Below are positions 21,057-23,912 of a stretch of 37,117 nt of DNA, one piece after another; position 1 is the stretch's first letter; each line of letters opens with the position of its first letter. The notes under the pieces were generated by a model. That model was not told the origin of the DNA and did no database searches. It worked only from the letters and a program-made list of their open reading frames with translations. The stretch spans positions 1-37,117 of the forward strand of contig JAMPFF010000028.1 in assembly GCA_023664605.1 (NCBI GenBank), in the 5' to 3' direction. The position numbers and the translations under genes are program-made. Origin of the DNA: Clostridium sp. Lineage in GTDB: Bacteria > Bacillota > Clostridia > Lachnospirales > Lachnospiraceae.

Positions 21057-22163
21057 CTATTCCCAAATTTTTTCTTCACCGGCTATGATAACCTTTGTAC
21101 CCTCTGGGAAAGAATTATATATAATTTCTGTATCTGCATTTCCTATAATGACTTCTTTTAAATTATCACACCCCATAAACGCCGCATTTTCTATAGAAGT
21201 AACCCCTTCCGGAATAGTAATACTAGCCAGACTATCACAACCCTGAAACGCCGCCTGCTCTATCGATGTAAGACTTGTCGGAAGAGTAACATCAACCAGA
21301 CTGCCACACCAGGCAAACGCAGACTGCCCTATAGATGTAACCCCTTCCGGAATAGTAATATCTGTTAAACTATAACAGTATATAAATGTCGTTCCCTCTA
21401 TAGCAGTGAGGTTCTCTGAAAGCGTAACACTCTTCAAATTTTCGCAGTACTGAAATGCCTGTGAATCTATAGAAGTAACGCTGTTCGGAATTGTGATATT
21501 TTCTAATCCTTTACAATTACTAAATACGCCAACTTCTATAGTCGTAATTCCCTCCGGTAATGTGATGGTCTTTAGATTTTCATTACTGGCAAATGCAAGT
21601 GTTCCTATGGAAACAACACCTGACGGTATGGTAACACTCTCCAAATCACAACCACTAAACACTCTTTTCTCTATCACAGTAACACCATCCGGTATTACAA
21701 TGCTCTTCACATCACATCCGTCAAACGCACTTTCTCCGATTGCCGTAACCGTATCCGGCAGCGTCACATTCTCTAAATTGGAACAATCCTTAAATGCTCC
21801 TTTGGGTATCGTAGTACAGCCATCCTCAATGATTACCGTATGAATATCATCTTCATACTCATACCAAGGCGACTCATAGGTAGAGAAACTCATATTCCCC
21901 GTACCGCGGATGACCAGAATGCCGTCCATTTCCTGTAAATACCACATTAAATCGGGCCCGCACTCCCCGTATTTGCTTGTCGTGCTTTCGTCAATTCCTG
22001 CTGAAATACTGTTTTCTTTCGCAGCGGTTTTGCTGCTGCCCTCATCTTCTGTCTGCTCCTTTACTACTTCCCCTGTTTCTTTGACGTCTTTCTCCGCGTC
22101 GCAGGCGCTCATCAGGATGGATACCGTTAATGCCAGTAGTGTTGTTATTGTCTTTTTCTTCAT
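21057..22163 (-). CDS. BspA-type leucine-rich repeat lipoprotein
   Basis: The start at 22163 is supported by AAAGGAG 9 bases upstream; in-frame ATGs at 22184 and 22196 lack this. The 368-residue product begins with a lipoprotein signal whose lipobox is LMSAC (Cys21). A Glu/Lys-rich spacer follows, then a region GPDLMWYLQEMDGILVIRGT typical of BspA-like proteins, then about nine repeats of 22-23 residues of the LRR_5 type (consensus L-x-x-ITIPEGVTSIGxxAFxxC). Such proteins are displayed on the surface and often bind host or microbial ligands. It is the first gene of a three-gene unit with a good promoter at 22218-22246. Confidence 0.9.
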   Translation of the reverse strand: MKKKTITTLLALTVSILMSACDAEKDVKETGEVVKEQTEDEGSSKTAAKENSISAGIDESTTSKYGECGPDLMWYLQEMDGILVIRGTGNMSFSTYESPWYEYEDDIHTVIIEDGCTTIPKGAFKDCSNLENVTLPDTVTAIGESAFDGCDVKSIVIPDGVTVIEKRVFSGCDLESVTIPSGVVSIGTLAFASNENLKTITLPEGITTIEVGVFSNCKGLENITIPNSVTSIDSQAFQYCENLKSVTLSENLTAIEGTTFIYCYSLTDITIPEGVTSIGQSAFAWCGSLVDVTLPTSLTSIEQAAFQGCDSLASITIPEGVTSIENAAFMGCDNLKEVIIGNADTEIIYNSFPEGTKVIIAGEEKIWE

Positions 22164-22217
22164 GTCTCTTTTCTCCTTTTTCATCAGTAAGACCATTTGG
22201 TCGTATTTTCACATGGA

Positions 22218-22246
22218 ATTATAGCATCATTTGTATACTTTGTCTA
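22218..22246 (-). promoter_or_regulatory. Promoter of the LRR lipoprotein operon
   Basis: On the minus strand TAGACA (22241-22246), a 17-base spacer and a perfect TATAAT (22218-22223). A small palindrome GACCA-TT-TGGTC (22191-22202) lies in the leader between this promoter and the ribosome site and could be an operator. Confidence 0.7.
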
Positions 22247-22255
22247 TGAAATTAT

Positions 22256-22263
22256 CAGGAAAG
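22256..22263. repeat. Left target-site duplication CAGGAAAG
   Basis: The 8-bp sequence CAGGAAAG directly abuts the left inverted repeat of the MITE-like element and recurs exactly at 22486-22493 after the right one. Confidence 0.8.
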
Positions 22264-22485
22264 CACGGAAATCAATTTTCAGTTATTACTCCAATTTAGA
22301 TTCGACAGGGCAGACATGAATCCCGCGGAGGTTCTTGAAAAACGTCGGCACTTAGTGAAAAAGACGCAACGCGGCTTTTGAACTTAGTACCGCTACGTTT
22401 TTCACGAAACGAAAGTGTGCCAACAAGGGATTTATGGCTGTCCTGCCATTTCAAAAGTGAAAATAACTGAAAATTGATTTCCGTG
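22264..22485. mobile_element. 222-bp MITE-like element, able to fold into one long hairpin
   Basis: The ends are perfect 24-bp inverted repeats (22264-22287 and 22462-22485; outer bases CACGGAAATCAA). They are flanked directly by the 8-bp duplication CAGGAAAG, the mark of a transposition event. The inside has no open reading frame but pairs further: CAGGGCAGACATGAATCCC (22306-22324) with GGGATTTATGGCTGTCCTG, TTGAAAAACGT with ACGTTTTTCAC, CGGCACT with AGTACCG, and an inner stem AAAAGACGC/GCGGCTTTT around AAC. The whole element therefore folds as one imperfect stem. It is probably a non-autonomous element moved by a transposase elsewhere; 8-bp duplications occur in several insertion-sequence families, so the family is not assigned. 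Confidence 0.8.
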
Positions 22486-22493
22486 CAGGAAAG
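22486..22493. repeat. Right target-site duplication CAGGAAAG
   Basis: This is the second copy of the 8-bp direct repeat. It now forms part of the purine-rich ribosome site (AGGAAAGGGG) of the XRE gene that follows. Confidence 0.8.
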
Positions 22494-22506
22494 GGGTTTG
22501 GTTTTA

Positions 22507-22710
22507 TTGAAATTTCAACGTATTCAGGATATGCGAATCGACCATGATATTACAATCAAAGAATTGTCGTCATCCCTTAATTTACATCGGGATGTTTACT
22601 CACGATATGAAAGAGGGGTTCGGGATTTTCCGATAGATATTTTGATAAAGCTTGCAGATTTTTATAATTGCTCTATTGATTACTTAGTGGGGCGTTCAGA
22701 CCATAAATAA
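22507..22710 (+). CDS. Small XRE-family helix-turn-helix regulator
   Basis: The product has 67 residues from a TTG at 22507, with AGGAAAGGGG about 10 bases upstream. The frame stays open further upstream, but that part would start inside the MITE-like element and is unlikely. It is a single Cro/C1-type domain: FQRIQDMRIDHDITIKELSS, SLNLHRDVYSRYERGVRDFP, then DILIKLADFYNCSIDYLVGR. There is no extra domain. Regulators of this size often control their own or a neighbouring gene; the target is unknown. The MITE-like element separates it from whatever promoter it had. A hairpin covers its stop codon. Confidence 0.85.
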   Translation: MKFQRIQDMRIDHDITIKELSSSLNLHRDVYSRYERGVRDFPIDILIKLADFYNCSIDYLVGRSDHK

Positions 22711-22721
22711 TCTGAACGCCG
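22692..22721. terminator. Hairpin at the XRE / Rpn convergent junction
   Basis: GGCGTTCAGA (22692-22701) and TCTGAACGCC (22712-22721) form a perfect 10-bp stem with a 10-base loop that includes the XRE stop codon. There is no T tract on either side, so terminator function is only probable. Confidence 0.5.
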
Positions 22722-22735
22722 CCTATTCCGTCGCC

Positions 22736-23713
22736 CTATTTGCCTGTATTTGATTTCAGCATTTCTATTTCACTGAGAAGTTCTTTGATAGTTTTCTCTT
22801 TTTCGGCAATAATTTGTTTACTTTCGGAAAGAGCCTTTTTATCCTCGGCAATGATTATATCCTTTTCACTGATAATCTTTTCCTTTTCCTCAAGCATCTT
22901 CTTATTCTCCGCAACTTCTCTCTCATATGCGCGTAAATCCAGATAATATTCTTCACGGTCACGGCAGCGCTTAAGAATCTGCTCTTCAGCACTTAACTGA
23001 AAAATGGTTTTGGACGCTTCGTTAATGTATGGGTCTTTCGCTGCTAACATTTTAATCTCCTCCCATGTGGTGGCTTTAAAGAGCTTAGCCCAGTCATAAA
23101 TATGATATTCTTTGTCGTCATCGGTCGCCAGTTCTATATGAGATAAGTCTACCACACTTAAGGTCAGGTTGTCACTATAAAGATGATGATTTTTTACGTT
23201 AAGAAGTTTATAAGTGGCATAAAATTCAGGATAATCATCAAACAGCGTGTAATCCAGAAAGCCGATATGTATGACGGGTTTAACCTCTGCATAATCCTGA
23301 CCGTGGTTCAGCATATCAAAAGAGCGGCAGAGATAACTGACGGAGCGGTTGGACCAGATGAGCCTGCCCGTCACCTGCATTTCAAGATTAATATGTGAGA
23401 AGTTATTCAAAGTAACATTAATGTCCAAGCGAAATTCTTTGCTTTTAATGGATTGCCCTAAGATAATGGGGTTTGTGATTTCTACGGATAGAATATCTTC
23501 TTCATGAAGATGGAGCAGTGAACAGATAAGTCCATGTAAGGCCTTGTTGTTGGTCTGGAAAACAGCCCTGAACATATAGTCGTTAGTCATGCCGTAGGGG
23601 ATTGCTCCGTGGGCGTTTTTAAGTAAATCATTTGGAAGTAAATCGCTTGGAAGTAAAGCATTTGGATTGGAAACGAAAGCTGCATTTTTAAGATTTGTTG
23701 TTTTTTGATTCAT
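22736..23713 (-). CDS. Rpn family PD-(D/E)XK nuclease / putative transposase
   Basis: The 325-residue protein has the Rpn core: YGMTNDYMFRAVFQTNNKAL near residue 40, then the nuclease residues in EFRLDINVTL (Asp) and HINLEMQVTGR (E-x-Q), as in recombination-promoting nucleases (TIGR01784 type). The C-terminal 85 residues are a heptad-rich coiled coil (EKEKIISEKDIIIAEDKKAL). The first 30 residues contain a five-residue repeat (P-[NS]-D-L-L) from three 15-bp tandem repeats at 23621-23665. Rpn proteins promote RecA-independent recombination in E. coli and some take part in phage defence. AAGGAG lies 8 bases before the ATG. Confidence 0.88.
   Translation of the reverse strand: MNQKTTNLKNAAFVSNPNALLPSDLLPNDLLKNAHGAIPYGMTNDYMFRAVFQTNNKALHGLICSLLHLHEEDILSVEITNPIILGQSIKSKEFRLDINVTLNNFSHINLEMQVTGRLIWSNRSVSYLCRSFDMLNHGQDYAEVKPVIHIGFLDYTLFDDYPEFYATYKLLNVKNHHLYSDNLTLSVVDLSHIELATDDDKEYHIYDWAKLFKATTWEEIKMLAAKDPYINEASKTIFQLSAEEQILKRCRDREEYYLDLRAYEREVAENKKMLEEKEKIISEKDIIIAEDKKALSESKQIIAEKEKTIKELLSEIEMLKSNTGK
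23621..23665. repeat. Three 15-bp tandem repeats in the Rpn gene
   Basis: AAGTAAATCATTTGG, AAGTAAATCGCTTGG and AAGTAAAGCATTTGG lie end to end and keep the reading frame. Copy number could vary between strains. Confidence 0.85.
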
Positions 23714-23912
23714 AGATATGTCTCCTTATGTGGTGTAAGATAACAGAAAGTGCATAAACAGCTTTCTGCAGAATGAATTGAATTAGTCGAATGACCGAAT
23801 ATGAATTATTTATATCACATTCAAGAGAAAAACGCAATTATTTTTTGTGAATTTTTTCTTATGTGCATTAAAAATAGGGGAAATCTAAATCGCGGCGTAC
23901 TATTCAGAAAAT

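Follow-up and report, generated by a model that had tools for sequence, protein, structure and literature searches.

MITE ends are thought to be selected, and the middle of such an element is regarded as a leftover. A 222-bp hairpin just upstream of a small regulator gene in a Clostridium sp. contig raises the question of whether its interior is a passive deletion product, or a structure that is itself maintained. Comparison of the element with its copies in the same genome and in relatives points to the latter.

An inserted element upstream of a small HTH gene

The element and its flanks occupy the following positions in the window, that is, the whole 37,117-nucleotide stretch of DNA that was analysed.

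22264..22485, plus strand: whole MITE, one long hairpin of 222 bp (fold, copies and CACGG-type rows)
22256..22263, no strand: left target-site duplication CAGGAAAG (sequence; the site is single, uninterrupted and diverged in five fetched relatives)
22264..22287, plus strand: left terminal inverted repeat CACGGAAATCAATTTTCAGTTATT (sequence, repeat finder, end-pattern scan)
22462..22485, minus strand: right terminal inverted repeat (sequence, repeat finder)
22486..22493, no strand: right target-site duplication CAGGAAAG (sequence)

The terminal inverted repeats (22264-22287 and 22462-22485) are perfect over 24 bp; a repeat finder reports 25 bp, since two bases of the duplication, G22263 and C22486, pair as well. 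An ORF scan finds no frame of at least 80 aa within the element. The perfect 24-bp repeats, exact 8-bp duplication and lack of a coding frame described in an earlier, sequence-only reading of this DNA are thus confirmed. When folded as RNA, 22256-22493 reaches -97.3 kcal/mol, compared with a mean of -52.45 (sd 4.51) for shuffled sequences (z -9.94), and 0 of 200 shuffles fold as well. The window contains no Rfam match at the gathering score; at E values up to 10 there are only four matches, all sub-threshold and chance-like.

On one side of the element lies a minus-strand leucine-rich-repeat gene (21057-22196; PF13306), and on the other a 67-aa HTH gene (22507-22710; PF01381), with the element just upstream of it. 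Past the HTH gene is a PF12784 PD-(D/E)XK (Rpn-like) gene (22736-23713) that has several copies in its own genome. The stretch 22494-23740 is matched in 64 of 77 genomes of the genus. The region upstream of the HTH gene (window 22150-22510) carries a palindrome of the AAGACCAnnTGGTCTTAT type and GTATACTTTGTCTAT, both kept with some changes in five fetched relatives (L317-L321); they probably serve a conserved regulator as operator and promoter. With the insertion, the conserved GTATACTTTGTCTAT stretch and the presumed ribosome-binding site have become separated.

The window element is a true insertion. Among the matches listed in a search that scored five candidates per genome, the same-genus loci that cover the upstream side of the HTH gene were fetched, and 5 of 5 lack the element: their joined flanks run through the site for roughly 40-90 nt on the left and 190-220 nt on the right, at 79-82% identity. 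Copies are numerous. A DNA search of the element's own genome (3.59 Mb, 78 contigs) returned 31 match rows at 17 distinct related sites, the window included, two of which are at contig ends, as expected of repeats. The element is matched in 24 of 98 genomes (its own counted), all of the same genus, and the end pattern, at up to 3 mismatches, matches 22 times in its own genome, two of these being stray. Among 23 CACGG-type rows (the window and some orthologues included), an exact 8-9 bp duplication flanks five and a 9-bp duplication with one mismatch flanks four; the other 14 have at least two mismatches or no duplication. The element is short, has no transposase gene, shares its terminal repeats with its copies, is bounded by a target-site duplication and is missing from this site in the five fetched relatives, as is typical of MITEs. 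Its earlier description as a non-autonomous mobile element is supported by the copies, the duplications and the uninterrupted sites.

A covarying core inside the hairpin

In several congeners only query positions ~58-167 match the element, and the arms are unrelated in sequence though still paired. This central region contains the following features.

22316..22436, plus strand: conserved core, modelled as R1, a three-way junction with flanking stem (core alignment, covariation, covariance model)
22330..22332, plus strand: junction-closing stem, 5' side, paired with 22419-22421 (99.3% of cells paired; two-sided change in 3 of 3 pairs)
22419..22421, plus strand: junction-closing stem, 3' side (helix 2 pairing count)
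22353..22353, plus strand: U.U mismatch with 22385 (invariant, 45/45)
22357..22358, plus strand: tandem G.A / A.G with 22381 and 22380 (44/45 and 43/45)
22409..22416, plus strand: side hairpin with a GNRA tetraloop, here AC-GAAA-GT (GNRA in 35/36 rows of loci from the covariance model alone)

We aligned 45 of 53 extracted cores (alignment A1; 8 of 61 were not located), leaving out two identical rows, three near-identical rows and three own-genome copies (L064, L065, L067) that carry an extra hairpin of ~28-29 nt within the 3' side of the core. RNAalifold places 31 pairs on A1, of which 24 show two-sided changes, compared with 14.2 in shuffled alignments. With this structure, 94.9% of cells are paired (83.9% in shuffles) and 171 cells carry double changes (44 in shuffles). 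All 500 shuffles scored lower on each of five measures, where the shuffles ignore relatedness and the structure derives from the same alignment; controls in which the structure was slid gave 8-9 pairs with two-sided change.

The side hairpin ends in a GNRA loop in 175 of 178 located copies (16 of 194 were unlocated) and in 107 of 108 rows of a second set, counts that are partly circular because the right anchor and the exact pattern themselves demand a GNRA-like loop. The count of 35 of 36 covers model-found loci only, although the model's training set was anchored too. A GNRA candidate is also present at this hairpin in each of the 41 model-found copies of the element's own genome (G000) and a relative, G466.

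The core also distinguishes between its strands. GU outnumbers AC by 35:7 in A1, by 14:4 in the 36 model-found rows and by 67:13 over the 108 rows, a set that includes copies already in A1. The long outer arms have 222 GU and 221 AC under a scoring that itself favours GU. The excess in the core therefore suggests that the fold of one strand matters, which fits single-stranded DNA as well as RNA. At model positions immediately flanking the junction, A1 gives 14:12, as against 23:7 in the 108-row set and 7:2 in the model-found rows; the constrained core therefore has no sharp border with the free arms.

Covariation beyond controls, tolerance of GU and RNA-type loops are the general marks of a structured RNA, and all three are found here. 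The suggestion that the interior pairs along its length and is a selected structure rather than a passive deletion product is thus borne out by the folding energy, the conserved and covarying pairs, the strand bias and the GNRA loop. One detail of that proposal finds no support. A pseudoknot between GGCAC (22347-22351) and GTGCC (22417-22421) is at odds with the conserved fold, in which GCC (22419-22421) is taken by GGT (22330-22332), with 99.3% pairing over three pairs, and the GG of GGCAC is paired in the inner stem.

Arms that change together

Orthologous copies L144 and L292 have identical cores, and both of their arms have been rewritten yet remain paired; the arms of L259 and L298 likewise change together. 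At one locus shared by G016 and G039 (L151:1564 and L212:5019), where the flanks are 91-96% alike, the element stands in opposite orientations, by an in-place flip or by independent insertion. These observations suggest that palindrome correction or recombination acts on the arms. The mismatches of the core have survived this, from which we infer selection on the core. Three copies (L127, L131, L176) have outer arms that no other copy shares and that are near-perfect along ~40-75 bp, far beyond the usual terminal repeat.

One core, several kinds of end

The core is not tied to one set of ends. Ends of the TAGGNGATTGCGAAAC type are found on most G466 copies and on several of seven further copies in the element's own genome; among 12 such rows, one has an exact 12-bp duplication and two have duplications of 10-11 bp with one mismatch. 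A third set consists of GC, a variable arm of ~20 bp, the core, an arm and GC-GTCC, and lacks definable terminal repeats. A fourth is GTTCAGCCC. When 194 copies were assigned by simple, partly loose patterns, 28 fell into the CACGG class alone, 14 into TTGCGAAAC, 19 into GC..GTCC and 4 into GTTCAGCCC; 4 fit two classes and 125 fit none of the four that were searched. A search for target-site duplications at stem ends, which is blind where the stem end differs from the element end, gave 6 of 191 at a score of at least 6, compared with 3.8 expected. Given the unclassed majority and the lack of a clear excess of duplications, the case for a DDE mechanism extends no further than the CACGG lineage and a few TAGG copies.

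Two short copies have both ends and no core: L069 (102 bp, flanked by a 9-bp duplication bearing one mismatch) and L300:2046-2116 (71 bp). Unless these copies lost it once inserted, the core may thus be dispensable for transposition. Since elements with unrelated ends share the core, conservation at the level of the family is highest there rather than in the ends. The sequence-only reading missed this because comparison was needed.

The terminal repeats did not lead us to a full IS in the element's own genome or the fetched stretches. In the own genome, a 78-contig draft, we found no PF01609 or PF00872 transposase and no Y1 transposase, the enzyme that mobilisation of the IS200/IS605 or REP-RAYT kind would call for, and the end scan returned element copies and two stray ends, with no adjoining transposase by eye. 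Around stray ends in the relatives, the ORFs of 6 of 7 fetched stretches (all except L303) include no recognised DDE transposase. In L300, inverted ends separated by 1,291 bp enclose a PF04754 gene (YhgA-like, a putative transposase in Pfam). A core copy interrupted by a run of N supplies the left end and the 71-bp core-less element the right, so these are probably two elements, with ends from separate copies, rather than one IS. Two further inverted end pairs, in L299 and L215, are 2.8-3.0 kb apart; that in L299 spans ordinary genes and was rejected as an IS. A PF01609 match in G466 (L316) was rejected as a partner because neither end occurs there within 5 mismatches. The autonomous partner could belong to a different IS family, be missing from the assembly or be extinct.

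Distribution and gene context

A covariance-model search of 397 genomes of the same family (by inference the Lachnospiraceae) detected the core in 150, representing 132 of 334 genera. In a class-wide sample, 10 of 391 genomes carry it, and all 10 belong to that family. Both searches used strict filters and scored up to 9 candidates per genome; fuller scoring gave 22 distinct places (29 rows) in the element's own genome, 38 rows in G466, 9 in G487 and 3 in G328. Searching named genomes with an exact core pattern gave 79 stretches. Of these, 53 come from assemblies that bear the labels Lachnospiraceae, Blautia, Butyrivibrio, Clostridium symbiosum or Clostridiales, and the other 26 are in a single assembly labelled Muribaculaceae, G016, which we count in the window's genus. 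The name of the family is deduced from these labels. Viral carriage was considered and rejected, as the exact pattern had no matches in viral contigs.

The 345 proteins encoded next to cores fall into 254 clusters, the largest with 12 members. With no recurrent neighbour, cis-regulation of one pathway or gene family was rejected. Only 2 of 194 cores lie inside an ORF of at least 200 aa, though some loci are short. Between co-directional neighbours the core is antisense in 54 cases and sense in 27 (194 copies, which include orthologues and are not fully independent; p 0.0036). The bias holds for ORFs from 80 aa (60 and 32, p 0.0046) and is weaker for ORFs from 130 aa (34 and 22, p 0.14). We read the antisense excess as a mild cost of a sense core in messages. 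At six loci (L119, L122, L126, L132, L145, L146) two cores occur in minus-then-plus order with a spacing of ~80 to 550 bases.

Discussion

We favour, with modest confidence, the view that these MITEs carry a selected, structured module whose core works mainly as RNA. The 222-bp element, non-autonomous and inserted with an 8-bp duplication upstream of the small HTH gene, would have moved in trans by a DDE-type transposase, as its terminal repeats and target-site duplication suggest. Its central module, with three-way junction, GNRA side hairpin and fixed non-canonical pairs, is carried by several element families with unrelated ends. Read-through transcription could allow the repeats to zip up and display the folded core, which may then contact a host RNA-binding or RNA-processing factor common to these bacteria. 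Such contact could make the insertion tolerable or otherwise favour the element.

Alternatively, the core could act as folded single-stranded DNA, one strand being extruded at replication and recognised by a shared trans-acting mobilising protein, so that the ends are free to change while the core stays fixed. This rather unlikely reading accommodates a core common to elements with unrelated ends, the multi-copy, almost always intergenic distribution (2 of 194 inside a long ORF) without ties to any gene family, and a strand asymmetry as apt for single-stranded DNA as for RNA. However, the CACGG lineage has the ordinary terminal repeats and 8-9 bp duplications expected of a double-strand DDE mechanism, and core-less copies retain both ends (L069, L300). 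No Y1 (HUH) transposase was found in the element's own genome, with its 22 distinct cores, nor in G059, G119 or G134 (9, 5 and 9 scored cores), and adherence of the loops to the GNRA rule also argues against a DNA role.

It is more doubtful still that we are looking at an ordinary MITE with a palindromic interior, in which conservation of the core is only apparent, because the element spread recently and its arms were corrected with the hairpin as template. The lack of strand preference in the outer arms (GU 222, AC 221), the co-change of arms between orthologues (L144/L292, L259/L298), as template switching would produce, and the opposite orientations in G016 and G039 all agree with it, and for the outer arms this explanation could well hold. 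Correction would nonetheless delete mismatches, yet the U.U and tandem G.A persist beside covarying pairs, and the core spans 132 of 334 sampled genera with GU over AC at 35:7. We consider it very unlikely that the hairpin serves as a bidirectional terminator of transcription, or as an insulator, at gene ends. Many cores do lie near a stop codon (the median distance is 43.5 nt over 100 genes ending towards the 3' side of the core), and some paired cores separate convergent genes (L122, L126, L132). As far as the accessible parts of those accounts go, QMITE2 is found mainly in 3' untranslated regions (PMC10969869) and SPRITE is terminator-like (PMC3049150). Against this, the sole terminator-like site in the stretch scanned (for short stems with loops of 3-8) is outside the element, cores lie in convergent and in divergent contexts equally often (27 and 26), and a plain stem would suffice, which leaves the invariant non-canonical core unexplained.

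Returning to a core that works mainly as RNA, one could envision a wider scenario, which we offer tentatively and do not rate as probable. A hitherto undescribed, family-wide structured RNA (or single-stranded DNA) module might itself be the selfish unit, capturing or being captured by different transposition ends, with a fixed core, stems rewritten at each locus and a family-specific partner. It would be a bacterial counterpart of the eukaryotic RNA-derived short elements.

Against the usual view of MITEs, the folded core is what has been kept across 132 of the 334 sampled genera, and ends and arms have varied. If the core acts as RNA, it would be a common, unnamed structured RNA of these gut bacteria and a testable case of a parasite sequence gaining an RNA function. 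Rewritten in concert, the arms also offer a natural system in which to study palindrome maintenance.

Relation to known elements

Our literature search, which most subscription papers and supplements lay outside, found no published description of this element. REP/RAYT elements are structured intergenic repeats mobilised in trans. The window element differs from them in that its genome is without a detected Y1 transposase, its structure is far longer and its CACGG lineage makes 8-9 bp target-site duplications.

The BOX, RUP and SPRITE repeats belong to Streptococcus pneumoniae, and BOX elements are transcribed (PMC3049150). Like the window element, all three are small and non-autonomous, and BOX and RUP are tightly folded with paired terminal repeats. 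Unlike it, BOX is built of boxA, boxB and boxC modules and occurs in other bacteria, and the portions of that account available to us describe no covarying three-way-junction core under different ends (PMC3049150). MRSC-65-2, which has a covarying stem and dozens of copies per genome, was judged selfish, with its RNA or DNA form left open in the accessible part of the report (PMC11109978). It is a single long stem with UYCCGG repeats in diverse phyla (PMC11109978), whereas the structure here is a three-way junction detected in a single family, and TYCCGG is present in only 5 of 194 cores.

A close likeness is seen in QMITE2, which has terminal repeats of 23-29 bp, duplications of 7-9 bp, a core of 113-145 bp and a strongly folded transcript (PMC10969869). 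In layout, which is what we compared rather than sequence, it is almost identical to the window element. ERIC and QMITE2 are MITEs of another phylum, and the available text on them does not state that their core recurs under other ends (PMC10969869). Relative to QMITE2, BOX/RUP and MRSC-65-2, as the accessible parts of those accounts describe them, what is new here is one complex core that recurs under different ends.
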